This document shows positions 20,892 through 52,731 of a DNA stretch of 64,000 nucleotides, in pieces (within the stretch, counting starts at the first letter, position 1; the number at the start of each line of letters is the position of its first letter). The stretch comes from Flavihumibacter solisilvae (GTDB lineage Bacteria > Bacteroidota > Bacteroidia > Chitinophagales > Chitinophagaceae). The DNA lies in assembly GCF_000814475.1 (NCBI RefSeq), contig NZ_JSVC01000011.1, forward strand, positions 1-64,000, in the 5' to 3' direction. The position numbers and the translations under genes are program-made. Below the pieces are notes generated by a model. That model worked only from the letters and a program-made list of their open reading frames with translations, had not been told where the DNA came from and made no database searches.

Positions 20892-21275
20892 GTAGGAAAG
20901 GATCTTTTCCTGTGCTGTTTTCAATTCTTCTGGACTTTGTTTCATTTTCCCGCGGGTAAAGTTCAGGTCATCGGTCTGCTGAAGTGGTACCAGGTGCAGG
21001 TGGGCATGAGGCACTTCGAGCCCGATTACGGCTGAGCCTACCCGTTTGCAGGGAAACGCCTGTTCGATAGCTTTTGCGATAGGTTTTGCAAACACCAGGA
21101 TCTCGGAGAGATAAGTGTCCGGAACATCGTAGAACTTGTCCACTTCCATTTTGGGAACAACCAGTACATGGCCGGGTACAATCGGAAAAACGTCGAGGAA
21201 AGCGTAGAACTTGTCGTTTTCGGCGATCCGGTAAGAGGGGATTTCGCCGTTGATAATCTTGGTAAATATGGTCAT
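20886..21275 (-). CDS. HIT family hydrolase
   Basis: 129 residues. It has the HIT motif HAHLHL in GLEVPHAHLHLVPL near residue 97-102, where the middle His is the nucleophile, and the N-terminal TIFTKIINGEIPSYRIAEND typical of Hint-like proteins. HIT proteins hydrolyse nucleoside phosphoramidates or dinucleotides in the cytoplasm. The start overlaps the upstream gene by 4 bp (ATGA), so both are read from one transcript. That transcript probably starts at the Pho-box-like promoter near 22.0 kb, which would place this gene in the same regulon. Confidence 0.93.
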   Translation of the reverse strand: MTIFTKIINGEIPSYRIAENDKFYAFLDVFPIVPGHVLVVPKMEVDKFYDVPDTYLSEILVFAKPIAKAIEQAFPCKRVGSAVIGLEVPHAHLHLVPLQQTDDLNFTRGKMKQSPEELKTAQEKILSYL

Positions 21276-21979
21276 CGTGCAGTAATTGAGCTCAGGTCTG
21301 CCCCCAATGACATCGTAAGTTTTATTTCTTTTGTTTGCCAGGTATCAAAAAATGGCTGCCAGCGCCCCATGCTGTAGATCATCCCGAACAACTCCCTTTC
21401 CATGTTTGCCGTCCACAGCTCATCCTTTTCTCCCCATTCCACATTGGTCACCTTGCCCGATGCATTGATGGTGATCACAAAGTTATGATTCATGTTGGGA
21501 ATGGTACTGGATTTATAGTACGCCGCGCTGAAGTATTCAATGAGCGGCTGCGTCGCGAACATGTAAACCGGGTCGATCTTTACGGCGTACCAGTTTTTCA
21601 GCTCACGCAGATCCTCATCCGTAAAACCGGCAGGGATGTGATCCACTTCGATCCTGAAATTATCTCCCTGTTGAACGAATACGCCGTTAACAGGCTGGTT
21701 TTTGTAATAGTAAATGAAATGTTCGAGGCTGTCTACGGGCTGGAAACGCACGAGCACAGTATCACCCCCGTTGTAGAATACGCGCGGACCTTCGACCTTA
21801 TCGGCCTGGAAACGGCACTGCATCTGCACATTTCCCTGTTTGTCGAAGAACAGCCATTCGCCCTGTTTGCGCCCATGCTTATCGAGCGCATTTACCTGCA
21901 TTCCGTTCCAGGTAATGGTGCGCTGGGCATTCACCAGTGCCGGAATGGCCAGTAATATGAATAGCAGTGCGCGTAACAT
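21272..21979 (-). CDS. Secreted protein of unknown function under a candidate Pho promoter
   Basis: 235 residues with a signal peptide (MLRALLFILLAIPALVNAQ). Residues about 30-70 (KHGRKQGEWLFFDKQGNVQM) resemble MORN/YwqK-type beta-hairpin repeats. The C-terminal part (NFVITINASGKVTNVEW, then NMERELFGMIYSMGRWQPF) resembles a TonB C-terminal-like fold. This reading is tentative and I cannot name the family. It overlaps the HIT gene by 4 bp. The promoter is unusual: four 11-bp repeats followed by TAGCTTTG only five bases before the ATG, so the mRNA should be leaderless or nearly so. Confidence 0.75.
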   Translation of the reverse strand: MLRALLFILLAIPALVNAQRTITWNGMQVNALDKHGRKQGEWLFFDKQGNVQMQCRFQADKVEGPRVFYNGGDTVLVRFQPVDSLEHFIYYYKNQPVNGVFVQQGDNFRIEVDHIPAGFTDEDLRELKNWYAVKIDPVYMFATQPLIEYFSAAYYKSSTIPNMNHNFVITINASGKVTNVEWGEKDELWTANMERELFGMIYSMGRWQPFFDTWQTKEIKLTMSLGADLSSITAR

Positions 21980-21984
21980 GGGTG

Positions 21985-21992
21985 CAAAGCTA
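21985..21992 (-). promoter_or_regulatory. -7 element for the 21272-21979 gene
   Basis: On the minus strand this reads TAGCTTTG, an exact TAnnTTTG match. It ends five bases before the ATG and begins nine bases after the last 7-mer of the repeat array at 22002-22041. Confidence 0.6.
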
Positions 21993-22001
21993 CCAGCCTG
22001 A

Positions 22002-22041
22002 TATTACCTTAATGTAAACTCAATGTTACCGGAATGTTACC
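22002..22041 (-). promoter_or_regulatory. Candidate Pho box: four 7-mers at 11-bp period
   Basis: Read on the minus strand from distal to proximal, the units are GGTAACA, GGTAACA, GTTTACA and GGTAATA, starting at plus positions 22035, 22024, 22013 and 22002. The 11-bp spacing is exact. The 18-mer ATGTTACCGGAATGTTAC at 22023-22040 recurs exactly at 49404-49421 in the promoter of the TonB receptor gene. The period and TTAACA-like core match PhoB/PhoP-type operators. Confidence 0.6.
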
Positions 22042-39574: not shown

Positions 39575-41776
39575 TTATTCCTCCGCCTCTACCCCACGGT
39601 AAGCTTTGATAAAAATGGCACCAAGGTTCTTATACGGCGGCACATAGTCATCGAACAGTTCCTTGCTTTCACCTTTGAACAGTTTGCCGAGCTCGGTCCA
39701 CATAGGCAGCCATTCGATATTGCGGCCATTCCGCAGGCTGGTGTTGATTGCACTCAATATCGGCTCATTAACAGTACGGGTACCGATCTGCTTGGATGAA
39801 ATGATATGCGCATCGGAACTGATCGTCAACACCTCGTTCAGGTTGTTATAGCCACCGCAGGAGCCGAGAATCACGATCCGGGCAGAAGGCGTTATCTGGC
39901 CGAGTGATGATTTCACATGGTAGCTGTGCCCCCTGTGAATATAGATCGTTGGTTCCAGCCCGTTCTTGTCGAGATATTCCTTCAGCTTAGCCTGGGCTTT
40001 TGCATCAGGGTCATCTTCACCGTACAATGGCTTGTTCGCAAAGATCCAGACAGATTTGCCTTTGGTCGATTTGATCATTACATAATCCGGGTTATCTGTT
40101 ATGGCCCAGTCTGATTTCCCCCTGAACAGGGTCATGAAGTTGGCGTATGAGTTCTGACCGTCTTTGTCGTCATCGCCATAGAAGAAGACCTGTTGTATGA
40201 CTTTACCGCTTGTATCCGTCAGCCGGTCGTAAGGCACCTGGTAAACAGGCGGAATTCCCAGTATTTTAGTCAGGTCAATATTCTTTGTCGTGTCTGCGGA
40301 CTCGAAAAGGGTCTTTTCAATATTATAGATCTTCTGTCCGTTCAGATCGCCGTTCCGCGTACACCTTTCATAGTTTTCGATGGCTTCCTGCAGCATATTG
40401 GCAGCAAGCTGTTTGTTCTTCTCGAAGATGCTGCTATAAGCGTCGGCCACATCCACCGCATCTTCCACATTCTGCAGGGTGGTAGTGCGTTCCAGGCCAA
40501 ACATGAACGACTTCATCAATATATTCGCATTGCTCTCGGGCATAAGCTTGAGGAGGGTGTCCAGTTCATTGTATGCCGCAGCCATTTTGATGAACTTCCG
40601 GAAATAATCGAAGTTCATGGAGAGGAAGAGGCTGTCTGTGGGCGTTCCTTTCAGGCGCTGGATGATGCGTTTGAACACGCCGCGGTAGCTCGATGTATAG
40701 ATTTCATCTTCACTGAGTACGCACAGGTAAAACAATTCCTGTGGGTTCAGCGGTTCCACGATCTTGAACCTTACGGGATCCGGGGAATTGTGCAGTCCAT
40801 TGATCTGGGTGACAAAGTACTGCCGCGCCTTGCTTTCCATCCGGTCAACAAGCGCCTTCCGTTCCATCGGCGTATCTTTCTGGATCATCATCGCGGTGTG
40901 GGCCAACCGCGTTTTTACCATCAGTTTATAATATTCCAGATCATTGTCTTTAACCTTGTCGATCTCTTCGAATGTCATTTTCCCCCTGTAGATCTCATCA
41001 ATGAAGGGGAAATAGAGCTGCCCGCTTCTGCTGGATGACATTTCCGCGATCACTTTAACAACAGGGTCCGGGTGAATGCGGATATACCTGGCCAGCGCAT
41101 CGTTGGATGCCGCATAATCGTAGACCTTGCGGGGGTCACGCCTGGCTTCCGCTGCGATCAGGCTATCCCGTTTGGGATAGGAAAAGTTGATTTTCAGGAA
41201 TGGCATGGTACGCTCAGGATACAGTTGCAGGAACTTGATCTGGAGAATATCCTTACAAAGCGGGATACCGATGTTGGGGGGATAGGAAAAGCAATCCACC
41301 AGGGTCTTTGCCACCCAGTATGGGCTTGCGCCGACAACCTTGTCGATGCTCTTATTGTTGCGGTCGAGATCGAGGCAGGTTTCAAAGTTCTTGACAAGCG
41401 TCGGGGCCAGTGCCGGGGAAAATGTACGGGTGCGGGCGCCTTTTCCAAAATCTCGCACCAGGATCTCAAGTCCCTTCAGGTATTTGATCTTCTCATTGTC
41501 GCGGAGCAAACTGTCCTGCTCAACCGACTGCTGCATTTCGTCCACCCTGTCAATCAGGGAATGCCTCACCTGGCTGTTAAATGCCTCGTCAGCGGTTAAA
41601 GGAATATATCCCCGGACGTAGGACCCGGGTTGCTGGTAGAGCTTCAGTTGCTCTTTATCGATATTTTCGTGAAAAAGGAGCCTGCTGCGCTCAACAGCAT
41701 AAGATGGCGCGGCTGTTTGCGATCTTCCCACGGCAGCAGCAAACACAAATAAACTCAGGGTAAACAGTCTTTTCAT
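39575..41776 (-). CDS. Secreted protein with possible clan-CD (caspase-like) peptidase domain
   Basis: 733 residues with a signal peptide (MKRLFTLSLFVFAAAVGRSQ). Residues about 20-520 are helical and give no recognised domain. The C-terminal 200 residues have an alternating strand pattern. One strand ends PTIYIHRGHS with His614 and His617, and the next ends ARIVILGSCGG with Cys640. Hydrophobic strand plus His-Gly, then strand plus S-C-G, is the arrangement of clan-CD Cys peptidases (caspase, CHAT, gingipain, C11). The gene is divergent from the phoB/phoR-like pair. Family assignment is inference; catalysis is not proven. Confidence 0.65.
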   Translation of the reverse strand: MKRLFTLSLFVFAAAVGRSQTAAPSYAVERSRLLFHENIDKEQLKLYQQPGSYVRGYIPLTADEAFNSQVRHSLIDRVDEMQQSVEQDSLLRDNEKIKYLKGLEILVRDFGKGARTRTFSPALAPTLVKNFETCLDLDRNNKSIDKVVGASPYWVAKTLVDCFSYPPNIGIPLCKDILQIKFLQLYPERTMPFLKINFSYPKRDSLIAAEARRDPRKVYDYAASNDALARYIRIHPDPVVKVIAEMSSSRSGQLYFPFIDEIYRGKMTFEEIDKVKDNDLEYYKLMVKTRLAHTAMMIQKDTPMERKALVDRMESKARQYFVTQINGLHNSPDPVRFKIVEPLNPQELFYLCVLSEDEIYTSSYRGVFKRIIQRLKGTPTDSLFLSMNFDYFRKFIKMAAAYNELDTLLKLMPESNANILMKSFMFGLERTTTLQNVEDAVDVADAYSSIFEKNKQLAANMLQEAIENYERCTRNGDLNGQKIYNIEKTLFESADTTKNIDLTKILGIPPVYQVPYDRLTDTSGKVIQQVFFYGDDDKDGQNSYANFMTLFRGKSDWAITDNPDYVMIKSTKGKSVWIFANKPLYGEDDPDAKAQAKLKEYLDKNGLEPTIYIHRGHSYHVKSSLGQITPSARIVILGSCGGYNNLNEVLTISSDAHIISSKQIGTRTVNEPILSAINTSLRNGRNIEWLPMWTELGKLFKGESKELFDDYVPPYKNLGAIFIKAYRGVEAEE

Positions 41777-41801: not shown

Positions 41802-41850
41802 CACAGATTTGAAACAAACGATTAACACAGGGTTAATGTTGCATCATCCG

Positions 41851-41890
41851 CTTAACAATTTCATAATCGGTTGAGAATTGACCGCTTACG
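41851..41890 (+). promoter_or_regulatory. Weak candidate Pho box upstream of the response regulator gene
   Basis: CTTAACA (41851), CATAATC (41862), GAGAATT (41873) and GCTTACG (41884) are spaced 11 bp apart. The last ends exactly 9 bp before the -7 element at 41900. Only the first unit is close to consensus. A second pair, ATTAACA and GTTAATG at 41821 and 41832, lies upstream in a different phase. Confidence 0.4.
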
Positions 41891-41899
41891 TAGCAGCAT

Positions 41900-41907
41900 T
41901 AACTTTG
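41900..41907 (+). promoter_or_regulatory. -7 element for the response regulator gene
   Basis: TAACTTTG matches TAnnTTTG, 16 bases before the ATG at 41924. Confidence 0.5.
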
Positions 41908-41923
41908 CGTAAACAAATTGTTA

Positions 41924-42610
41924 ATGGACACGAAAGGAAAGAAGATCCTGATTGCAGACGATGAACCGGACATCCTGGAGATAATTCAGTACAATCTCCA
42001 GAATGAAGGGTACGAGGTATATACAGCAAAAGACGGAGATGACGCATTGATGAAGGCAAAACAGGTGAAACCGGAACTGATCATCCTCGACATCATGATG
42101 CCGAAGAAGACAGGGGTGGAAGTATGTGAGATCCTGCGCGCCCAGCCGGCATTCAAAGAAACCCTGATCATATTTCTTACCGCCCTGAACGACGAGTCCT
42201 CCCAAATGAAGGGATTGGATACCGGGGCCGACGATTATGTGAATAAACCCATCAGCCCGAAGTTGCTGATCAGCCGGGTCAACGCCCTTTTCAGGCGCGT
42301 AACCAAGGCCGAGCCGACCAGTAACGGAGTGCTGACGATTGACAACCTGGTTATCGACCCGGTAAAATTTGTAGTGGAGGTCGACGAAAAGGAAGTAACC
42401 CTGGCCAAGAAGGAGTTTGAACTGCTTTACCTGCTCGCTTCCCGCCCCGGACGCGTTTTCCTGCGCAATGAGATCCTGAACCAGGTTTGGGGCAACGACG
42501 TGATCGTCGGCGACCGCACCATCGATGTACATATCCGCAAGATCCGCCAGAAACTGGGACTTGACTGTATCACCACCGTAAAGGGTGTGGGATATAAATT
42601 TGACCTATGA
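41924..42610 (+). CDS. Response regulator, OmpR/PhoB family
   Basis: 228 residues from the ATG at 41924 (MDTKGKKILIADDEPD). The receiver has acidic DDE (12-14), phosphoacceptor Asp56 (LIILDIMMP), Thr in FLTALND and Lys in DDYVNKPI. The C-terminal winged helix (Trans_reg_C) has EFELLYLLASRPGRVFLRNEILNQVWG and RTIDVHIRKIRQKLG. It forms a pair with the overlapping kinase gene. The nearby porin, DUF47-PiT genes and 11-bp repeats suggest a PhoB role; that is inference from context. The PhoB-type regulators bind 11-bp direct repeats. Confidence 0.93.
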   Translation: MDTKGKKILIADDEPDILEIIQYNLQNEGYEVYTAKDGDDALMKAKQVKPELIILDIMMPKKTGVEVCEILRAQPAFKETLIIFLTALNDESSQMKGLDTGADDYVNKPISPKLLISRVNALFRRVTKAEPTSNGVLTIDNLVIDPVKFVVEVDEKEVTLAKKEFELLYLLASRPGRVFLRNEILNQVWGNDVIVGDRTIDVHIRKIRQKLGLDCITTVKGVGYKFDL

Positions 42611-43659
42611 AAAATCTCTCTCCCCGGCAGATCGCAGCTTTACTGGCTTTCGTGATCTCAGCGCTGGTCGGCATCGCCAACCAGGTGCTCGTGAAATCCT
42701 GGATGGTTTCGCTGAGCTCCTTTACTGTGCTGTTCCTCGTTTCCTACCTGCTGATCTTTTATTTCCTGCAGCAATTCATTTACAGGCGGATCAAACTGAT
42801 TTACAAATTCATTTACCAGACCAAGGCGAGCAAGCGCGAAGAATTTTATAATAAATACATCATTCCACAGAAGAGTATTGACGAAGTAAAAGAAGATGTG
42901 GAGAAGTGGGCGGAACAACGCCAGGGGGAAATAGAGATGCTGAAAAAGAATGAAGCATTCCGGAAAGAGTTTCTGCAGAACCTCGCACATGAATTCAAGA
43001 CGCCCATCTTCGCCATCCAGGGATATGTGGACACACTTTTGAGCGGTGCGATGGATAATGTGGATGTGAGGAAGCGATTCCTGGAAAGCACCAGCAGGAA
43101 TGTAGACCGCCTTGTTAATCTCATGAATGACCTCGATGAGATCTCCCGCCTGGAGACAGGTGAACAGGTACTGTATAAACAGTATTTCGTTATCCAGGAC
43201 TTGATCAAAGAAGTGATCGATTCATTATCGCTCAAGCTCAACCAGAAACAAATTACCGCCTATCTTAAAAAAGGTACCGAATCGCCGGTATATGTGTTTG
43301 CAGACAAGGAGAAGATCCGCCAGGTGATCATTAACCTGATTGAGAACGGAGCTAAGTATGGTAAACCCGGGGGGACAATCGTTGCCAGTGTGTACAACAC
43401 TGATGAATTTAAAGTTTTGGTGGAGATCAGTGATGATGGGATCGGGATTGACGAGGAACACCTGCCGCGGATCTTTGAAAGGTTTTACCGGACTGACAAA
43501 GCAAGGAGCCGTGATAAGGGTGGTACCGGCCTTGGACTTGCGATCTGCAAGCACATCATAGAAGCACATGGGGAATCGATGCACGTGCGGAGTAAGCCGG
43601 ATGTGGGAACGACGATCGGGTTTACGCTGGGGTCAAGCAAGGAAAAAATCGGGGAATAA
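42607..43659 (+). CDS. Sensor histidine kinase, PhoR-like
   Basis: 350 residues with two N-terminal membrane helices (about 8-29 and 34-58) with no large periplasmic domain between them, like PhoR. A short linker is followed by HisKA (FLQNLAHEFKTPIFAIQGYVDTLLSG, His128) and HATPase with NLIENGAKYGKPGG, DDGIGIDEEHL and GGTGLGLAICKHII. It overlaps the regulator gene (ATGA). Lack of a periplasmic sensor fits kinases that sense through the phosphate transporter and PhoU. No PAS domain is apparent, unlike E. coli PhoR. Confidence 0.92.
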   Translation: MKNLSPRQIAALLAFVISALVGIANQVLVKSWMVSLSSFTVLFLVSYLLIFYFLQQFIYRRIKLIYKFIYQTKASKREEFYNKYIIPQKSIDEVKEDVEKWAEQRQGEIEMLKKNEAFRKEFLQNLAHEFKTPIFAIQGYVDTLLSGAMDNVDVRKRFLESTSRNVDRLVNLMNDLDEISRLETGEQVLYKQYFVIQDLIKEVIDSLSLKLNQKQITAYLKKGTESPVYVFADKEKIRQVIINLIENGAKYGKPGGTIVASVYNTDEFKVLVEISDDGIGIDEEHLPRIFERFYRTDKARSRDKGGTGLGLAICKHIIEAHGESMHVRSKPDVGTTIGFTLGSSKEKIGE

Positions 43660-43661
43660 TT

Positions 43662-44969
43662 TTATCTGGATTTTCTTTTAAAGTAGACCAGCGAGATAAG
43701 CGTGGCAACTACCCCGATCGCACCGGTGATCATCACGAGTGTAGTATAGAAATTCAACCAGGACAATTCAAGCCTGAATACAGTTTTACTTAACAGCACT
43801 CCGACACTTCCGAGATAGCCGAAGGCATCAGCCAGGTAGATGAGAAAGCCTACATTGCCTGCAATTCCAAACGCAGCTATGAATCTTTCGAAAAGAATGC
43901 TGTTGAATGGAATGTAAACCATGTACAAACCGAGCCCGATGCTTAACATCCACCACCAGGTGTCAACAAGCCCCTGCTTATAGGCAACTGTTATTGCGAG
44001 GCTGAGTACAAAGCCCGCGAACATGATCAGGTGAGTGATGGAGAATGCGCGGAAATTATTCCTGACAGTAACCATAGAGGCGATCACAATCAACATTACC
44101 AGGGAAATGATGGTTTCTGTCTGCGCAAACACTGAACTGTCGAAAGATTCACCTGCCTCCCGCCACATGTCGGCCATGAAACTGTCGCGTACCTCTCGCA
44201 GGATCGTCACCAGCATATAAATTATCACCAGCAGGAATAAGCCCGGACCATATTCCCGTAAAAGATTACGTCGTGCATCAACGGGCATGGGCAAACGAAC
44301 AGTTCGGTGAGCTATATCATCTTCTGTTGGAGCTGGAATTTTTTCAACCAGGTAAATAAATAGCAGGAGTGGAAGAAAAAAAACGGCGCCGGTTACAAAT
44401 GGCATCCAATATTCACTCACCGACCAGCTGTTCATGGTATACAATGCAACAGATTTGGAAACACCGGAGCCGAAAATAAAGCTTACGGCAAGGGCTGCAC
44501 TGATTAAATCTGTCATCCTTCTGCCTTCGATATAGGAAAAGACAATTCCCCATAGCATCCCAAGCGGGAACCCATTGAACAGCAGGCACCAGAAATTATA
44601 TGGTGCCGGCAGGAGCGCGAATACAAGCCAGGAAAACCATGCGATGCCGGTCAGTAAAAGTATGAGCCGGCCCCGCCCCATCCGCCCCAGTTCAGCAATG
44701 AACCGGATGCCGTAGAACTTACTTGCCATATACCCGAATACCTGGGTGATGACGAGAATGATCTTGTAGTCAAGTCCCCATAAGGTGTACCCATCGAACG
44801 CCGCAACATTGAAAGCTTTACGGAAAGAGAACAGGCATGTATACAGGCAGAAGACCACCAGTGCACTATACAAAGCTTGTGGCCATTGAGCCTTACGAAT
44901 GGTGAGCGTTGTTTCCAGGAGACAGTGTATTAATTCACCAATATAATAAATAAGCCGTTGTATAGACAT
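43662..44969 (-). CDS. DUF5690 family MFS-like membrane protein
   Basis: 435 residues with about twelve hydrophobic segments. The N-terminal LYSALVVFCLYTCLFSFRKAFNVAAFDGYTLWGLDYK is the DUF5690 pattern, related to MFS transporters. The mid-region GFPLGMLWGIVFSYIEGRR and C-terminal VGFLIYLADAFGYLGSVGVLL also fit. It begins about 20 residues before the usual family start. The ATG lies within a perfect inverted repeat, listed separately. Substrate unknown. It is convergent with the kinase gene, 2 bp apart. Confidence 0.85.
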   Translation of the reverse strand: MSIQRLIYYIGELIHCLLETTLTIRKAQWPQALYSALVVFCLYTCLFSFRKAFNVAAFDGYTLWGLDYKIILVITQVFGYMASKFYGIRFIAELGRMGRGRLILLLTGIAWFSWLVFALLPAPYNFWCLLFNGFPLGMLWGIVFSYIEGRRMTDLISAALAVSFIFGSGVSKSVALYTMNSWSVSEYWMPFVTGAVFFLPLLLFIYLVEKIPAPTEDDIAHRTVRLPMPVDARRNLLREYGPGLFLLVIIYMLVTILREVRDSFMADMWREAGESFDSSVFAQTETIISLVMLIVIASMVTVRNNFRAFSITHLIMFAGFVLSLAITVAYKQGLVDTWWWMLSIGLGLYMVYIPFNSILFERFIAAFGIAGNVGFLIYLADAFGYLGSVGVLLSKTVFRLELSWLNFYTTLVMITGAIGVVATLISLVYFKRKSR

Positions 44970-44978: not shown

Positions 44979-45064
44979 AAAACTGCATGAGAAATCTTCT
45001 ATGGCCGCAAAGCTACCGTGGCTGTATTACCGCAATGTGTTGTATCCGTTAAGGTAATCTGAAT

Positions 45065-45119: not shown

Positions 45120-46487
45120 TTAGTATGCGTTGGTCTTCGGGTTGAAGCTTGTCCAGCCGGTAGCCCAGTTGGTTGTACCGAATGCACCTACATAAGTTGT
45201 CGGTGTGAAGTATGAATCCATTCCTGTAAAGCTTGCACCAGTCAGGGCAGGTGAACCAGCTTTGGGAAGGAAGTTGGGTGAATTGAGGTTGAACGGATCA
45301 GTCAGTTGAACATCATCGCGTGAAGCCAGTGTGCGGTTACCTTCTGATTCAGCTTTTGTTTTCAGCTGTGCTGCTGTGAATACTGTTGAAGCAGGATCAG
45401 CTTTATCTTCTGCAGTATAATAAGGCTTAGCGTAAACAGCCACGATATTATTCTTGAATTCAGAGAGACCGTCTTTATAGGCTTGCGCAGTAGCAGAAGA
45501 TTCCATAGAGAACCCTGCTTTGCGGTGACCGATCAGCAATGAGTTGTTCAGTACAAAACGTGTAGCTCTTCTCCACCTGTTGCTGTAACCATGGTTACTG
45601 CTGGAACCTGTGGTATCATAAGGTCCGATCAGTGTCAGGTTAGAAAGAACAGGGCGGGTAAAGGGTTCAGTGAGGTCACCGCTACCGTTGTTGTCGCACT
45701 CAATACCGTTTGCCTGGTCTGTATCAGCCGGCTTGTCGCGAAGTGAAACAGCGAATTGGATCTTTCCCACATAGCCGAAATCGAAATCGTAGTCGTCATC
45801 CATTGTAGCGAAAGCAACGAGGTTTTTACAGTTAACCGTACCGCCGAAGAATTCGAAGGCATCGTCACCGCCGTAAGAAACCTGTACGTTTTCAATTACA
45901 GTACCTGCACCAACGCCGCCTAGGGTCAGGCCGTTGATCTCTGAACCAGGTTCAGCAGCGATACCGGAAAACTCGATACGCACATAGCGCAGGATTCCGC
46001 TGTTGTCGTTTACATCTGTTCCACCATAAGGCCTGTTTACACCGCCTTCGATAATTGGTGCAGGAGATGTGGGCCTGTTGGTGGGTGCCTTACCCAGCAG
46101 GATGATACCACCCCAGTCGCCGGGAGCACGTTCGCCTGAAGGCTTACCTGAAGTGAATACAATGGGTGCAGATGCAGTACCATCAGCAATAAGTTTAGAC
46201 CCACGCTCAACGATGAGGGCGCCTTTTTCGGCTACATCACTTTTGATCACGGTTCCGGGCTCAATAGTAAGAACGGCTCCATTGTTCACGTATACATATC
46301 CTTTCAGTGTCCATGTTCCTTTCGTAAGCGTCATGCTCTTATCAATGGTGCCGTTAAGTACTTTGGAAGTGGAATCAGTACCGTTTCCTCCGCCGTTAAC
46401 GATCTCGTCACCGGTATTTACTTTTATACAGGAGGTAATGGTTAATGCGCTGAGAGCCACTACCGCAATTTGTTTAACCAATTTCAT
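45120..46487 (-). CDS. Lipoprotein with parallel beta-helix-like repeats
   Basis: 455 residues. The leader MKLVKQIAVVALSALTITSC ends in a lipobox (Cys20). After a Gly/Asn/Ser linker, residues about 50-430 show short strands ending in turns (TLTKGTWTLKGYVYVNNGAVLTIEPGTVIKSD), as in right-handed beta-helix proteins. TVNCKNLVAFATMDDDYDFDFGYVG is unusually Asp-rich and might bind cations. It follows the TonB receptor gene by 43 bp and is probably its surface partner. In similar pairs in other Bacteroidota the lipoprotein is thought to bind the cargo. Confidence 0.8.
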   Translation of the reverse strand: MKLVKQIAVVALSALTITSCIKVNTGDEIVNGGGNGTDSTSKVLNGTIDKSMTLTKGTWTLKGYVYVNNGAVLTIEPGTVIKSDVAEKGALIVERGSKLIADGTASAPIVFTSGKPSGERAPGDWGGIILLGKAPTNRPTSPAPIIEGGVNRPYGGTDVNDNSGILRYVRIEFSGIAAEPGSEINGLTLGGVGAGTVIENVQVSYGGDDAFEFFGGTVNCKNLVAFATMDDDYDFDFGYVGKIQFAVSLRDKPADTDQANGIECDNNGSGDLTEPFTRPVLSNLTLIGPYDTTGSSSNHGYSNRWRRATRFVLNNSLLIGHRKAGFSMESSATAQAYKDGLSEFKNNIVAVYAKPYYTAEDKADPASTVFTAAQLKTKAESEGNRTLASRDDVQLTDPFNLNSPNFLPKAGSPALTGASFTGMDSYFTPTTYVGAFGTTNWATGWTSFNPKTNAY

Positions 46488-46530: not shown

Positions 46531-49320
46531 TTATTTTTTATCGAAAGAGAAATCATAAGTGAATCCAATACTGATCGTTGTTCCGGGCTTATAGCTGCTG
46601 AACATTTTGTCGCTGCTGGAATATTCTTTGCCACCTGAAGTATTCTCATAGAGGTAGATTTTATTGTTCAGGATGTCAGAGAAGGTCAGTTTCAGTTCTC
46701 CCTGTTTTTTCAGGATGCGTTTAGCAACCTGGAAGTCGAGCAGGTTCCTGGGGCGCTCGTAGATATCTGCGATTTCGCCATTACCTACCAGCGCGAGACG
46801 CGGACCGATACGGTTGTACATCAGCGTCATATTGAACAATTTGTCGCTGGTATATTGAAGACCGGCATTTACCATATAAGGCGACTGACCCTGGATCGGC
46901 CGGTTGGCATTGATGGACTGACCTGAAGAAGATGCGTCGGTGAAGTTCACATCTGAAATCAGGTAGGTAACGTTACCAAATCCAACCATGTTATTCATGA
47001 AGTCGCTACTCTTGCTGATAAAACCAAGGTTCTTCCTGAATTCCAATTCAGCTCCATAAGTATCTGCTTTGTCTGCATTGGAATAGGTGTACAACCTGCG
47101 CTCAGGAACTGAACCTGAATTGAGGCGGAACTCGATCGGGTTGTCAAAGCGCTTGTAAAATCCACCGAGACTGAACACCTCACCTGCAGCAGGATAAATT
47201 TCATAACGAAGGTCAAGGTTCAGGATCTTGGTTCTTTTCAGGTCCTGGTTACCAGCAATACTATAGCTGGATTCGTAATCATAGAACTGGAAAGGTGCAA
47301 TTTCCCTGAATTCAGGACGGGCCACTGTCTGTGAAGCCGCAACGCGTATGTTGCTTTTTGAAGTCGGTGAATAAGTCAGGTTCAGTGAAGGAAGGACATC
47401 CCATTTCTCTGTATCAATTGTCACCTTCTTCGCAGAAAGGTCCTTTGAGTCAAGGAACTGCTCAAAGTATTCTACACGTGCCCCCCAGATCAGTCTCAAC
47501 TTTTCTGACAACTTGTTATCGAACATGGCAAAACCAGAATTAATTGCTGATACGCCGAAGTATTTGTCAGAGTTGTTGGTGAATTCGTCGTATACAAATC
47601 CCGTCTGGCTGAAATTATTCTTATTGAAGATCTGGTCGAAGGGAAGCATGGACAGGCTCTGGTCAAACTGCGAGGTTGCTTCTTCCACGCGGAAGATCCG
47701 TGCCTTGAAATCCCTGAAACGGATAACCGTTCCACCGCCGAATTTGAAATTCTGTTTTTGACCAAACATATCGAACGGCAGCGTGAAAGCACCGGAAGCC
47801 GTTACGGTATGGTCATACAGGTCTGACCAGAAGCGGCGTGAGTCATCGTAGTCGAGGATCACCTGGTCGCTGCCCGATGCCTGTGTATACTGTTGCGTAC
47901 GAAGGTCGGGCTGGGTCCGTGTTACCAAAGCATAACCGGCGTTCCAACGGAATTTAGCTTTTGCAATATTAAACTGGTGCTCACCTTCCAGCTGGCTGCT
48001 GAAGAAGTTACGCTGGTTCAGCACCGAAGAATAAAAAGTAATATCCTGGTTACGGCTGTTGTTGAATCCACTCCTTGTATAATAGTTGTCTTCGTAAAAC
48101 CGGTTGTAAATATTCTTCCAGGATACTTTATGATTGCGCTCTGAGTAAGTGAGGTTAACGAGTGCACCAAGGTTTACCTGGTATTTGTTCTGCAGGTCGG
48201 TATAATCAAAAACAGAACCTTCCCTTTCAGCCATTGAGCGATCAACGGAATATTTCAACATGGCATTCCTGTAAGTAACTGCTGCGATAAGGCCCAGTTT
48301 GGCATTATTCTTCAGTGTCTTTACAGAGCCATAAGAAAGATTGTATTGCTGTACAGGAAGCGCTGTCGCATTCACCTGGCGGAATACATCATCCTGGAAG
48401 AGCTGTGATTTTTCGATCTGGCCACTTGTCGGCATCTGGCCATACTCCTGCCTTGTTGCAGGGAAGCCCGCAGGAAACTTTCTTGTTCCATTATCCCATC
48501 CCAGCCAATCCGTGTTGGTGCGTGGGTTGCTGGTGAAATCCTTAAATGTTGAGTTTGTATTGTAACCCCACTGAACTCCTACAGACAGGAACTTCTTCGA
48601 AGGAATATCTTTCGTCTGTACCTGGATCAATCCACCTGCGAACTCACCGGTGAGCTCCGGGGTCGCAGTTTTATTGATCACAATATTGTCGATCATGTTT
48701 GAAGGGATCACATCAAAGGAGAACGCCTTGCGGTCAGGCTCTGATGAAGGGAGCTGGGCATTGTTGATGAATGCCGCGTTGTAACGATCACTGAGACCGC
48801 GGACAATCACGAACTTGTTATCCTGGATGCTAGTACCGCTGACACGCTTCAGTACTTCACCGGTCGTCCTGTCCGGGGTACGGCGGATAAGGTCTGCCGC
48901 GATACCACTTGATACAGCTATATTGTTACGCTGAAGGTTGATCAGTGCGCTGGTTGTTTCCTTTTTAACTGAAGTCCGCACAACCACTTCACCCAATTCA
49001 GATTTATTCTCCAGGACAACAGAAATGCTGTTGGCTATTTCATCTGTTGTTACCTGTACATCTTCAACAGACTTTGTACTATAACCGGCACTGGAGACTA
49101 CCAGTACATATTTCTTCCCTGTTTCAAGCTGGATGGTGAAGCGGCCTTCCACATCAGCAGCTGTTTTCTTTGTTGTACCTTCTATGGTTACCGTTGCGCC
49201 GGGTACGGGTTCATTCCGGGTGTTGATTACTTTTCCACTAAGTTTAACTGTCGACTGGGCGAGGCCTTGCAGGTAGGCTGCCATCACCATCATCAACAGT
49301 AAGAGGATCTTTTTGCTCAC
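46531..49320 (-). CDS. TonB-dependent receptor with candidate Pho-controlled promoter
   Basis: 929 residues starting at GTG (no earlier ATG in frame downstream of the promoter). The order is signal peptide (MSKKILLLLMMVMAAYLQGLAQ), carboxypeptidase-regulatory-like domain (VKLSGKVINTRNEPVPGATVTIEG, about 24-110), plug domain (RRTPDRTTGEVLKRVSGTSIQDNKFVIVRGLSDRYNAAFINNAQLPSSEPD, about 145-205) and a barrel ending FDFSFDKK. It resembles Bacteroidota receptors without SusD. The six-unit 11-bp repeat upstream and neighbouring phosphate genes suggest import of a phosphate-containing compound, or another phosphorus source. The substrate is not shown by the sequence. Confidence 0.92.
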   Translation of the reverse strand: MSKKILLLLMMVMAAYLQGLAQSTVKLSGKVINTRNEPVPGATVTIEGTTKKTAADVEGRFTIQLETGKKYVLVVSSAGYSTKSVEDVQVTTDEIANSISVVLENKSELGEVVVRTSVKKETTSALINLQRNNIAVSSGIAADLIRRTPDRTTGEVLKRVSGTSIQDNKFVIVRGLSDRYNAAFINNAQLPSSEPDRKAFSFDVIPSNMIDNIVINKTATPELTGEFAGGLIQVQTKDIPSKKFLSVGVQWGYNTNSTFKDFTSNPRTNTDWLGWDNGTRKFPAGFPATRQEYGQMPTSGQIEKSQLFQDDVFRQVNATALPVQQYNLSYGSVKTLKNNAKLGLIAAVTYRNAMLKYSVDRSMAEREGSVFDYTDLQNKYQVNLGALVNLTYSERNHKVSWKNIYNRFYEDNYYTRSGFNNSRNQDITFYSSVLNQRNFFSSQLEGEHQFNIAKAKFRWNAGYALVTRTQPDLRTQQYTQASGSDQVILDYDDSRRFWSDLYDHTVTASGAFTLPFDMFGQKQNFKFGGGTVIRFRDFKARIFRVEEATSQFDQSLSMLPFDQIFNKNNFSQTGFVYDEFTNNSDKYFGVSAINSGFAMFDNKLSEKLRLIWGARVEYFEQFLDSKDLSAKKVTIDTEKWDVLPSLNLTYSPTSKSNIRVAASQTVARPEFREIAPFQFYDYESSYSIAGNQDLKRTKILNLDLRYEIYPAAGEVFSLGGFYKRFDNPIEFRLNSGSVPERRLYTYSNADKADTYGAELEFRKNLGFISKSSDFMNNMVGFGNVTYLISDVNFTDASSSGQSINANRPIQGQSPYMVNAGLQYTSDKLFNMTLMYNRIGPRLALVGNGEIADIYERPRNLLDFQVAKRILKKQGELKLTFSDILNNKIYLYENTSGGKEYSSSDKMFSSYKPGTTISIGFTYDFSFDKK

Positions 49321-49343
49321 AAATTAGAGTGTTTATTTGCGGG

Positions 49344-49351
49344 CAAAAGTA
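49344..49351 (-). promoter_or_regulatory. -7 element for the 46.5-49.3 kb TonB receptor
   Basis: On the minus strand TACTTTTG matches TAnnTTTG, 23 bases before the GTG start and nine bases after the proximal repeat unit. Confidence 0.6.
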
Positions 49352-49360
49352 GAAGTCCAA

Positions 49361-49422
49361 TGTTAAGACGTTGTTATTCGCAGGTTAACGAATTGTGAAC
49401 GGGATGTTACCGGAATGTTACG
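49361..49422 (-). promoter_or_regulatory. Candidate Pho box array: six 7-mers at 11-bp period
   Basis: Read on the minus strand from distal to proximal: CGTAACA, GGTAACA, GTTCACA, GTTAACC, AATAACA and CTTAACA, beginning at plus positions 49416, 49405, 49394, 49383, 49372 and 49361. The spacing is 11 bp every time. The array fills the space between the porin stop (49430) and the promoter. Six units would hold three dimers of a PhoB-type regulator. Confidence 0.7.
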
Positions 49423-49429
49423 TACCGCA

Positions 49430-50725
49430 TCAGAAGCGGAACTGGAGACGGAAAGTCAACACATTATCCTTGATATCTTCGGTGTAACCTTCCAGTTGCG
49501 TTTTTTCGTTCATCACAAAGTCGTACCACAACACCAACTTGAGGTTCTCATTAATATAATTCAGGTACCCGACACCAAGCGTGTTGTACCTGATGTCTGC
49601 GGGATTCATGTTGTCATGCGATTTGCTGATATCGTCGCCCTTGACTTTCGTATTGGGATCATACCAGTCGAACTTAACTCCTACCTGGTTTTTTCCGAAT
49701 GCATGCAACAGGTAAAAGAATGCGCCATTGAATTTTCTTACATAATAAGGTTGGTTTTCAATTACGCCGGGTGTTTCGGTTGTTTCATCGGTACCGGTTT
49801 GCGTACCCCACCAGTATTCAGCCCGTAGAGTTGTTACGCTGTTATGGTGGCGGAGTTCCCACTGCGCATCCGCACCATAATAAATACGGGGAGCTTTTTC
49901 GCCGAGGTTGGATTCCGAAGAATCGACTATGAAACCTGGTGCTCCATTGGGCTTACCCATTTCATATACGTACTTCGTGTTCTGGATAAAACCACCATTC
50001 AGGTATGATAGTCCCCCAGACATGCGCAGGCTGTTGTTGATGGCTACCGGCTTAAAAGAAGCCCGCGTAATAAAATCTTTATACGAATCATATTCCGCAG
50101 TGCCAGTAAGCCCCTGGCCGTTAAACACTCCGGCGTCCACTTTCAACCATTTCAGTTTGTGCGATTTGCCACGGGGTTCAAAGCTGGCCATTGCCCCCAG
50201 GTCACGTTCCGTACGCATCAGGATCTGTGACATCCGGCCACGCTCAGGTGATTCGCGGTCCTGTGACGAAAGGTTCACTTCATAGCCGAAGGGGCGGGCA
50301 AACATTCCCATTGTGAAACCAAGGACCTCAAACTTGTTCTCGAAAACGCGGCCCCAGAAATCCCTGATATTTACACCTCGTTCCGTACCGTCGAACTGGA
50401 ATACAAACTGGGCTGAAAGCTTGTCATTTTTATTGAATCGGGCATAATCGAAACGGACCCGTCCCCGCCTGAGTATGAAACGGTTGTTTGAGTTCGGCTG
50501 GAAGTTCGGGCCGGCATATGTGGCTGCACCTTTAGTTTGGATGTATTGAAACTGTGGTTGGATATATCCACTAATGCGGAGGTAGTTATACTTATAATAC
50601 ATGGCCAGCATGCTCTTCCCCATTTCATGGGAAGTGTCTACCATATCCATCAGGAACTGAGCTTTTGCAGCAGAAGAAAGAATGAGGAAGAAAGCTACTA
50701 TAATATAAGAAGTCAGTCGCCGCAT
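49430..50725 (-). CDS. Phosphate-selective porin O/P family protein
   Basis: 431 residues from the ATG at 50725, chosen because a signal peptide follows (MRRLTSYIIVAFFLILSSAAKAQ). The barrel has the OprO/P pattern: YLRISGYIQPQFQYI, NRFILRRGRVRFDYARFNK, FQFDGTERGVNIRDFWGRV and GMFARPFGYEVNLSSQDRE. It ends with FRF (LTFRLQFRF), an aromatic C-terminus for outer-membrane insertion. The family takes up phosphate or polyphosphate under starvation. The gene is divergent from the DUF47-PiT genes, with two similar repeat boxes between them. Confidence 0.9.
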   Translation of the reverse strand: MRRLTSYIIVAFFLILSSAAKAQFLMDMVDTSHEMGKSMLAMYYKYNYLRISGYIQPQFQYIQTKGAATYAGPNFQPNSNNRFILRRGRVRFDYARFNKNDKLSAQFVFQFDGTERGVNIRDFWGRVFENKFEVLGFTMGMFARPFGYEVNLSSQDRESPERGRMSQILMRTERDLGAMASFEPRGKSHKLKWLKVDAGVFNGQGLTGTAEYDSYKDFITRASFKPVAINNSLRMSGGLSYLNGGFIQNTKYVYEMGKPNGAPGFIVDSSESNLGEKAPRIYYGADAQWELRHHNSVTTLRAEYWWGTQTGTDETTETPGVIENQPYYVRKFNGAFFYLLHAFGKNQVGVKFDWYDPNTKVKGDDISKSHDNMNPADIRYNTLGVGYLNYINENLKLVLWYDFVMNEKTQLEGYTEDIKDNVLTFRLQFRF

Positions 50726-50791
50726 GATACCATGATTAAATGGCTGCGAGGAGCCAAAGTTAATTTTATATGATCGAATTGTTAACGGTCG

Positions 50792-50799
50792 CAAAGGTA
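50792..50799 (-). promoter_or_regulatory. -7 element for the porin gene
   Basis: On the minus strand TACCTTTG matches TAnnTTTG, 66 bases before the porin ATG. Confidence 0.45.
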
Positions 50800-50830
50800 A
50801 CAGCCGCTATAAAGGCCCTAACAGGTCCAG

Positions 50831-50848
50831 TGTTAAGGAATTATTACC
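50831..50848 (-). promoter_or_regulatory. Candidate Pho box 1 in the porin/DUF47 intergenic region
   Basis: On the minus strand GGTAATA and CTTAACA are 11 bp apart. Two weaker units (ACCTGTT, CCTTTAT) continue the phase down to 50809, ending nine bases before the porin -7 element. Confidence 0.45.
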
Positions 50849-50916
50849 AAATAACTACCGCTGCAATCACGATGCTTGGCCGATCCGGGCAGGCTTTTAC
50901 CCCTTTTTGAGCCCTG

Positions 50917-50934
50917 TGTTAAGAAATTATTATC
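50917..50934 (-). promoter_or_regulatory. Candidate Pho box 2 in the porin/DUF47 intergenic region
   Basis: On the minus strand GATAATA and CTTAACA are 11 bp apart. This is a near-copy of box 1, 86 bp away and in the same orientation. It could serve the porin or the DUF47-PiT genes. Confidence 0.45.
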
Positions 50935-50991: not shown

Positions 50992-51639
50992 ATGTCGCTT
51001 TCCTCAGTCCTCAAACTATTCACACCGAAGGATAAAGTATTTTATTCCCTTTTTGAAGAAGTCGCCAATACTGTTGCCAAAATGGGAAAACTGATGAAGG
51101 ATGTTGTCAGTGAGCCGGATTTTGACAAGAGAAGCGCACTCATTTCGAGGATGGAAGACCTGGAGCACGTCAATGATGACCTGACCCACAAAATCTTTAC
51201 TGAACTTGGAAGGAACTTCATTACTCCATTTGACCGAGAAGACATTCACTACCTGGCTTCGGCCCTGGATGATATCTGCGACTATATTTTCGCTTCTGCC
51301 AAAAAAATCAATTTCTACAAGGTGAATCCCAACGATCCGGGTATCCAGAAGATGGCGGACCTGATCGAACAGGGAGCAGACCATATCAGGAGTGCAGTGA
51401 TTGAATTGCGTAACATGAAGAATATGCGGAAGATCACGGATGCACTTGTGAAAGTGAACAGCATCGAAAACCAGGCAGACGATATCTTTGATCTAAGCAT
51501 TGACAGGCTGTTTGAAACAGAACCCGATGCCAAAGAGGTGATCAAGAAAAGGGAAATCTACCAGGTAATGGAAATTGTTACAGACAAATGCGAAGATGCA
51601 GCAAATGTGATTGAATCCATTATAATTAAATACGCCTAA
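50992..51639 (+). CDS. DUF47 family protein (PhoU-like partner of PiT)
   Basis: 215 residues, mostly long helices with PhoU-like acidic motifs (EDLEHVNDDLTHKIF near 57-72 and KVNSIENQADDIFDLSIDRLF near 150). The start MSLSSVLKLFTPKDKVFYSLFEEVA is typical of the DUF47/YkaA family, which is encoded next to low-affinity phosphate permeases and is thought to regulate them. The PiT gene follows after 30 bp, so the two form an operon. Confidence 0.93.
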   Translation: MSLSSVLKLFTPKDKVFYSLFEEVANTVAKMGKLMKDVVSEPDFDKRSALISRMEDLEHVNDDLTHKIFTELGRNFITPFDREDIHYLASALDDICDYIFASAKKINFYKVNPNDPGIQKMADLIEQGADHIRSAVIELRNMKNMRKITDALVKVNSIENQADDIFDLSIDRLFETEPDAKEVIKKREIYQVMEIVTDKCEDAANVIESIIIKYA

Positions 51640-51669: not shown

Positions 51670-52731
51670 ATGACATTCCTGGTCATTATTATAATCCTGG
51701 CTCTTGTTTTTGATTATATCAACGGATTTCACGATTCGGCAAACTCCATTGCCACGATAGTTTCCACAAAAGTCCTTACCCCATTCCAGGCAGTACTCTG
51801 GGCCGCTGTGTTCAACTTCGCGGCCTTCTTTATTTCCAAATACCTGATTGGAGAGTTCAAGATCGGCAACACGATTGCCAAGTCGGTGCACGAGAACTTT
51901 ATTACGCTCGAAGTGATCTTTGCCGGACTGATAGCCGCGATTGGCTGGAACCTGCTGACCTGGTGGTTTGGCATTCCATCAAGTTCTTCCCACACTTTGC
52001 TGGGCGGTTTCATGGGTGCTGCAATGGCGCATGCCGGCGGAATAGCAAAAGGTGGCGTTTCTGTGATCAACTATGCCAAAGTGATCCCTACTTTCCTGTT
52101 CATCTTCCTGGCTCCTGTAATAGGAATGCTTATAGCATATATAATAACTGTTATCATCCTGAATATTTGCCGCAAGGCGGTTCCCTATAAAGCGGAGAAA
52201 TGGTTCCGGCGGCTCCAGTTGGTGTCTTCGGCGCTGTTCAGCCTTGGCCATGGTGGTAATGATGCCCAGAAAGTAATGGGTATTATCGGAGCTGCGGTTA
52301 TTTTTTATGAGGTACAGAATGGCAACCCTGGGTACACTACCCTCGATTCGGCACACAGGTTCAGCCATTTTGTGGAGGATTACTGGTGGGTTCCCGTTTC
52401 AAGTTTTACCGCGATCGCGTTAGGTACGCTCAGTGGCGGATGGAAGATCGTTAAGACAATGGGAACCCGGATCACCAAGGTAACTCCCCTGGAAGGTGTT
52501 AGCGCAGAAACCGCTGGTGCTGCCACTTTATACCTGGCGGAAGCAGCGGGGATCCCGGTAAGTACAACGCATACCATTACTGGTGCGATCATCGGGGTAG
52601 GTGCTACAAAGCGCCTGTCGGCTGTACGGTGGGGTGTTACCATTAACCTGCTTTGGGCCTGGATCCTGACCATTCCGGTCAGCGCCCTGTTTGCCGCACT
52701 GGTCTATTATCTCCTGAAACTTGTCTTCTAA
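51670..52731 (+). CDS. Inorganic phosphate transporter, PiT family
   Basis: 353 residues with about ten membrane helices. The two PiT signatures are visible: GFHDSANSIATIVSTKVLTP near residues 18-37 and GHGGNDAQKVMGIIG near 197-211, each with the conserved Asn-Asp or Asp-Ser element. The IGWNLLTWWFGIPSSSSHTLLGGFMGA and AGIPVSTTHTITGAIIGVGAT repeats show the internal duplication. It imports phosphate with a cation. It follows the DUF47 gene and ends in a strong terminator. Confidence 0.96.
   Translation: MTFLVIIIILALVFDYINGFHDSANSIATIVSTKVLTPFQAVLWAAVFNFAAFFISKYLIGEFKIGNTIAKSVHENFITLEVIFAGLIAAIGWNLLTWWFGIPSSSSHTLLGGFMGAAMAHAGGIAKGGVSVINYAKVIPTFLFIFLAPVIGMLIAYIITVIILNICRKAVPYKAEKWFRRLQLVSSALFSLGHGGNDAQKVMGIIGAAVIFYEVQNGNPGYTTLDSAHRFSHFVEDYWWVPVSSFTAIALGTLSGGWKIVKTMGTRITKVTPLEGVSAETAGAATLYLAEAAGIPVSTTHTITGAIIGVGATKRLSAVRWGVTINLLWAWILTIPVSALFAALVYYLLKLVF

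Follow-up and report, generated by a model that had tools for sequence, protein, structure and literature searches.

Bacteroidota are major players in phosphorus turnover. In Bacillus subtilis, the PhoP box consists of TTHACA-type repeats. According to the available portions of the open-access literature, the phosphate response of Bacteroidota is known mostly from expression studies. A review of PHO boxes describes 11-nt direct repeats that come in pairs and are bound in head-to-tail orientation (PMC4415409). For E. coli, a PhoB dimer has been modelled over the -35 region jointly with sigma (PMC3348028).

Within the Bacteroidota, the PhoBR cluster of Flavobacterium johnsoniae is described as holding Fjoh_0542 (OprP), Fjoh_0543 (PhoR), Fjoh_0544 (PhoB), Fjoh_0545 (TonB receptor) and Fjoh_0546 (FII lipoprotein), and Pi depletion induces the last two strongly, the FC column of the transcriptome giving 8.02 for Fjoh_0545 and 9.91 for Fjoh_0546 (PMC8115612). 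No operator is described there, the main text containing neither 'Pho box' nor 'motif' (PMC8115612). In B. fragilis, PhoB of the PhoRB system is needed for pst expression and binds a pstC promoter fragment; the accessible part of that report defines no site and uses 'consensus', 'repeat' and 'motif' 0 times (PMC3547664). DAP-seq of PhoP from Riemerella anatipestifer yielded the motif TTTAACA, read by its authors as ArcA-like, and EMSA shifted the promoters of a TonB receptor, an outer-membrane protein and dnaG (PMC9603813). The open-access literature, as far as its text was available, contained no definition of a Bacteroidota Pho box by its repeats and promoter distance that we could find, and such absence is unproven.

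A six-unit array upstream of a TonB-dependent receptor

The window analysed here is a 64,000-nucleotide stretch of the Flavihumibacter solisilvae genome, taken whole. An earlier note had reported in it six 7-mers at exact 11-bp spacing, and these were confirmed letter for letter, in position and in spacing, on the minus strand at 49422-49361. From the distal unit (U6) to the proximal one (U1) they read CGTAACA (49422-49416), GGTAACA (49411-49405), GTTCACA (U4, 49400-49394), GTTAACC (U3, 49389-49383), AATAACA (U2, 49378-49372) and CTTAACA (49367-49361). The array lies, as also noted then, between the stop codon of a porin-like gene (49430..50794, minus strand) and a -7 promoter element, TACTTTTG (TAnnTTTG; 49344-49351, minus strand), with the distal unit beginning 7 nt past the stop codon and the last unit ending 9 nt before the box. 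The GTG start of the TonB-dependent receptor gene is at 49320 (46531..49320, minus strand; Pfam CarbopepD_reg_2, Plug and OMP_b-brl_3). Neither a sigma-70-type promoter nor a terminator was detected in 49250-49500.

When each unit is scored by the letters that match TTAACA (maximum 6), the six units reach 5, 5, 5, 5, 5 and 6, or 31/36. Random 64-kb sequences from a first-order Markov model gave best six-unit scores of 24 (n=30) and 25 (n=300), and chance was rejected on that comparison. Within the window, the score of 31 occurs at period 11 only, and periods of 7-10 and 12-16 reach 21-23. A simple tandem repeat was likewise rejected, as a generic repeat finder reported no repeat at 49361-49422, the units being degenerate.

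The gene after the receptor (45120..46487, minus strand) is lipoprotein-like, and a homologue stands just downstream of the receptor in 88 of the 92 ortholog loci with room for it. Searches of Pfam, NCBIfam and PDB gave nothing noteworthy for its product, the only Pfam match being HphA_C at E 0.81, and the structure model has a pLDDT of 43, leaving the formerly suggested beta-helix fold unconfirmed. The porin-like protein has no Pfam match of its own, even at E 5, and a homologue occurs in 23 of 99 receptor loci, counted with short flanks. Further genes of the locus, by Pfam, encode a DUF47/PhoU_div protein (50992..51639, plus strand) and a PHO4-family phosphate transporter of the PiT type (51670..52731, plus strand).

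Conservation and recurrence of the arrays

Receptor homologues at E <=1e-120 occur in 117 of 195 family genomes; a single contig scan with the receptor gave 4 loci. We compiled 95 ortholog upstream regions (30 from loci opened automatically, the other 65 fetched), a set that includes second copies in G051, G084 and G149 and excludes the G043 and G139 matches, the G081 and G122 fragments and all other matches scoring less than about 545 bits. The best four-unit score across these regions was 20.45 at period 11, compared with 14.34-14.64 at nine other periods; it was at least 18 in 91 of the 95 and never below 16, and the array is kept before orthologs with protein identity down to 37%. When the spacing to the -7 box was left free between 3 and 19, 9 nt was best in 75 of 95 orthologs. 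Fifteen paralogous receptors, with upstream regions counted from the outermost in-frame ATG, scored 14.67 at period 11 against 13.93-14.87 at other periods.

Genome-wide, the repeats by themselves lack specificity. A bare pattern of three units with up to three mismatches and without promoter box matched 14 places, four of them this array in shifted registers, compared with 10 in the reversed control. A unit scan of the window revealed a second array that shares the 9-nt geometry, and the bare-pattern scan, unspecific alone, led to a third on contig C10. From these three sites, the window's two and that on C10, a box pattern was derived (three units, 9 nt, TAnnTTTR), which with up to three mismatches matched five places in the genome, three of them by construction, versus one in the reversed control. 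A period-12 pattern recovered 0/3 founding sites and gave 57 matches versus 81 in the control. The expectation that a motif scan of the genome would point to phosphate genes was thus largely borne out with the promoter box included, but the bare repeats barely exceeded their control.

A 58-position sequence model, R1, was built from 45 receptor-ortholog promoters, the 49361-49422 site included. Genome searches with R1 scored 150 of the 1069-1811 first-look candidates per genome, so that weaker sites may be missed; with 150 of 1753 scored in the own genome, at least 21 matches were found at E <=10. Among those scored, the top matches were the array itself (49343-49399, 42.5 bits, for a site used in building the model), the site before a gene for a 235-aa protein (39.7 bits) and that before a TonB receptor gene on C75 (37.6 bits), followed by a 486-aa protein on C10 (31.2 bits), a receptor on C3 (23.1 bits) and dnaB on C20 (22.2 bits). 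By eye, the C75 receptor appears SusC-like. Weaker matches precede genes for a 129-aa protein, a DUF5690 protein, a DUF218 protein and a metallophosphoesterase, the last of these followed by a glycosyltransferase.

The 235-aa match is the second array of the window (21984..22040, minus strand), with four units, 9 nt and TAGCTTTG, placed before the gene at 21272-21979 (minus strand). This protein has no Pfam match, and an array also precedes its homologues in the congeners G008 and G179. Similarly, a weaker array with TAGCTTTG in register (45007..45054, minus strand, 19.8 bits) adjoins the DUF5690 gene (43662-44969, minus strand), and the homologue in G179 is preceded by an array of 25.5 bits; the DUF5690 protein is a candidate new phosphate-regulated gene product. 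Three weak partial matches of 10.8-12.5 bits lie upstream of the porin-like gene (50755-50785, 50827-50847 and 50897-50933, minus strand), and the R1 model found no strong array at the DUF47 and PiT genes of the window. The 486-aa protein, tentatively PhoX-type, alone gave no Pfam (PF05787 included), NCBIfam or convincing PDB match, PDB PhoX reaching E 0.036. Among 12 proteins of its family, six match the PhoX Pfam PF05787 at E <=0.5, the strongest at 5.6e-11, and upstream of those 12 genes the four-unit score was 18.83 at period 11 versus 13.92-15.08 at other periods.

Across the family, the box pattern with at most one mismatch gave 41 matches in 37 of 195 genomes, versus 2 for the reversed pattern, and 158 genomes had no match at this stringency; the array at 49361-49422 has two mismatches and is therefore absent from the 41. 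Downstream, 26 of the 41 proteins carry CarboxypepD_reg and 18 carry Plug; two resemble PHA-synthase subunits, and some are without any match. In the phylum, 42 matches were obtained in 34 of 395 genomes, versus 2 reversed. Four of these fall within the family; among the remaining 38, 28 sites (27 automatically opened loci) were read and 10 unread, and one of the 28 has no open frame downstream, which gives 27 proteins: 11 with CarbopepD_reg_2, seven with Porin_O_P, two with PBP_like_2 (PstS-type), two with Metallophos and one with DUF47. In addition, an R1 search of six relatives returned at least 24 matches at E <=0.01, in which arrays precede homologues of the receptor, the 235-aa, DUF5690, metallophosphoesterase, PhoX-type and porin-like proteins and dnaB; 5 of the 24 precede proteins that resemble no target of the own genome. 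Arrays recur before phosphate-acquisition genes (PstS-type, DUF47, Porin_O_P, PhoX-type and receptor genes), with a minority before other genes. From their annotation, the downstream genes, mainly TonB receptors with phosphate-selective porins, PstS-type and DUF47 proteins, form a predicted Pho regulon.

Because the pattern uses units 1-3 only, unit 4 offers an unbiased test. In register it scored 4.27 at the 41 family sites and 4.71 at the 28 phylum sites, against off-register values of 1.77 and 1.73. Units 5 and 6 were slightly raised in the family (2.59 and 2.68 vs 1.90 and 1.78) and near background in the phylum (2.21 and 2.11 vs 2.04 and 1.96), so that four units form the general core. 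In the 22 receptor orthologs with identity of at least 50%, units 5 and 6 reached 4.41 and 4.32 vs 1.58 and 1.46, and the 73 below that identity gave 3.15 and 3.19 vs 1.84 and 1.71; the six units are therefore an extension kept by the receptor promoter. The statement that six in line is unusually long stands in so far as four is the phylum-wide core, but six are common to close receptor orthologs, and multiple PHO boxes are described elsewhere (PMC4415409).

A further feature is the tetramer AATT, found here at 49391-49394, at the end of unit GTTCACA. Among the 95 orthologs it follows unit 4 in 44, unit 2 in 11 and unit 6 in 4, and units 1, 3 and 5 in none. The pattern-derived sets have it after unit 4 in 10 of 41 family and 9 of 28 phylum sites and after unit 2 in 10 and 2; the family and phylum counts are 1 and 0 after unit 6, 1 and 1 after unit 1, 1 and 0 after unit 5, and none after unit 3. 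This even-odd bias suggests that units may be used two at a time, as expected if each PhoB dimer occupied a 22-bp site, and it is suggestive only, because related sequences are not independent. A linker of this kind after even-numbered units seems new.

Arrays upstream of dnaB

The dnaB array of the own genome (L208, G000:C20; minus strand) has its model match at 110295-110324. The dnaB loci considered are L208, L262, L264 and L318-L347. We analysed 31 dnaB loci, namely L264 and the top 30 by score among the 91 genomes with a match, out of 98 searched, a set that leans to closer relatives because the best-scoring genomes were taken. Their upstream regions have a four-unit score of 18.13 at period 11, versus 13.84-14.35 at other periods, and scores of at least 17 occur in 21 of 31 loci versus 23 of 1550 shuffled sequences. 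In 11 of the 21 array-bearing loci there is a TATATTCGCC-type -7-like box, sought with an expression written after the sequences were seen; it is always upstream of the array and ends 12-18 nt before the first unit (11/11).

In contrast to the receptor promoters, the dnaB arrays with such a box thus appear to sit in a repressor-like position, and arrays downstream of the dnaB promoter seem new. No link between PhoB and dnaB was found in the accessible text of the open-access literature, its absence being unproven. If the dnaB part is true, chromosome replication would be tied to phosphate supply via the replicative helicase gene, and nutrient sensing would be connected with DNA replication. 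Taken jointly, a phylum-wide Pho code of Bacteroidota (four units, AATT after the fourth, 9 nt and TAnnTTTG, with two more units at the receptor) and a block of dnaB by the same regulator under phosphate lack make up a tentative proposal, rather doubtful as a whole.

A putative Pho operator and its relation to described systems

The proposed binder is an OmpR-family response regulator encoded at 41918..42610 (plus strand; ATG at 41924), with a receiver and a winged-helix effector domain (Pfam Response_reg and Trans_reg_C). It is the genome's top match to the PhoB model (228.9 bits vs 173.6 for the next of 81 matches), with a lead of 55 bits. As it falls below both curated equivalog cut-offs of NCBIfam (TIGR02154, 229.5 vs 296.2; NF053854, 224.1 vs 270), we term it PhoB-like and do not file it as PhoB. 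Alignment to 3t72 and 1qqi indicates that VWG..V.V.DRT.DVHIR of the effector loop and recognition helix of E. coli PhoB is kept. For the effector domain, another OmpR-family regulator scores higher than PhoB (76.7 vs 68.8 bits), and over its full length MtrA and RegX3 are the top PDB matches. Homologues at E <=1e-75 occur in 180 of 195 family genomes. The adjoining gene (42607..43659, plus strand) encodes a sensor histidine kinase that is PhoR/PnpS-like by Pfam and NCBIfam and under the NCBIfam cut-offs.

A weak partial array of 11.2 bits lies upstream of the regulator gene (41822..41867, plus strand), and arrays in this position are weak across 30 ortholog loci (three-unit score of 13.17 at period 11 vs 11.17-12.10). 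An ATTAACTTTGCGTAAA-like stretch at 41899-41925 overlaps both the start codon of the regulator gene and its likely -7 box, and it recurs in several relatives. Divergent from the regulator gene is that of a 733-aa protein without clear family (39575-41776, minus strand), with weak units in the intergenic stretch.

We consider it very probable that the array is an operator through which a PhoB-like regulator would switch on the receptor and the lipoprotein under phosphate scarcity. Its period, its usual 9-nt distance from the promoter box, its conservation and the content of the predicted regulon support a PHO-box-like operator, in a Bacteroidota variant with a predicted PhoB-like binder, and thereby the PhoB-type reading of the earlier note. 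Weighing against it are the regulator's scores under the NCBIfam cut-offs and its closer resemblance to other OmpR-family chains, the weak arrays at its own gene, the missing strong array at DUF47 and PiT, the 158 family genomes with no match at one mismatch, the targets of no apparent phosphate function and the ArcA-like reading of the Riemerella PhoP (PMC9603813). When phosphate is scarce, the linked kinase would phosphorylate the regulator encoded at 41918-42610, whose dimers would bind the direct repeats, the six units then representing three head-to-tail 22-bp sites. Given the 9 nt between the proximal unit and the -7 element, activation by a contact of the E. coli PhoB type would be the natural reading: the most proximal dimer may recruit RNA polymerase to TAnnTTTG instead of a -33 element. 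The receptor and lipoprotein, once switched on, would probably carry phosphorus compounds across the outer membrane. We infer phosphate control of the receptor from the matching F. johnsoniae genes Fjoh_0545 and Fjoh_0546 (PMC8115612).

A different OmpR-family regulator, responding to another signal (ArcA-like, redox or envelope), might instead bind an operator set of which phosphate genes are a part. Nine whole-model PhoB matches of at least 140 bits in the genome would allow this, as would array targets without obvious phosphate role (dnaB and the DUF218 and 129-aa proteins) and the Riemerella PhoP with its core TTTAACA, which is compared with ArcA and linked to aerotolerance (PMC9603813). 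However, beside the receptors the phylum-wide targets are phosphate-centred, the locus carries the PhoB/PhoR-like pair together with DUF47 and PiT, and P-responsive loci of F. johnsoniae, including the lipoprotein Fjoh_0546, are described as tightly repressed under N and Fe limitation (PMC8115612), which makes this alternative improbable.

We give still less credence to repression by the array, whether by blocking transcription that reads through from the porin-like gene or by silencing the receptor. The missing terminator between the two genes and the repressor-like positions that arrays can take, as at dnaB, would fit such a role; the array is nevertheless upstream of the -7 box, usually by 9 nt, which is activator geometry, and Pi depletion raises expression of the counterpart genes in F. 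johnsoniae (PMC8115612). A chance resemblance, or a decayed and functionless tandem repeat, would agree with the degeneracy of the units, five of which match 5/6 letters, but it is contradicted by conservation before such distant orthologs and by a score unmatched in the random sequences, and its probability is close to nil.

With the array read as a PhoB-like operator, a rule readable from sequence would allow the Pho regulon to be predicted from genomes. It would also place the 235-aa protein and DUF5690, along with uncharacterised receptors and lipoproteins, among the phosphate-scavenging functions.

The B. subtilis PhoP box shares with this array a near-identical unit core and the 11-nt period, and differs in phylum and in promoter type. 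The R. anatipestifer PhoP motif comes from the same phylum and has the same core heptamer, whereas 11-nt arrays or promoter spacing are not described in the available text of that study (PMC9603813). The F. johnsoniae cluster, matched by domains and gene order, has a similar gene set, and its receptor has the same three Pfam families (pf07715, pf13715 and pf14905) as the one here (PMC8115612). Like the PHO box of E. coli, the array consists of 11-nt direct repeats with seven conserved and four less conserved positions, serves phosphate-acquisition genes by its predicted regulon (PMC4415409) and lies close to the promoter (PMC3348028). Unlike that box, with its CTGTCAT unit, it has a KTAACATT-like unit, a Bacteroidota TAnnTTTG promoter, a four-unit core plus two and AATT after even units.
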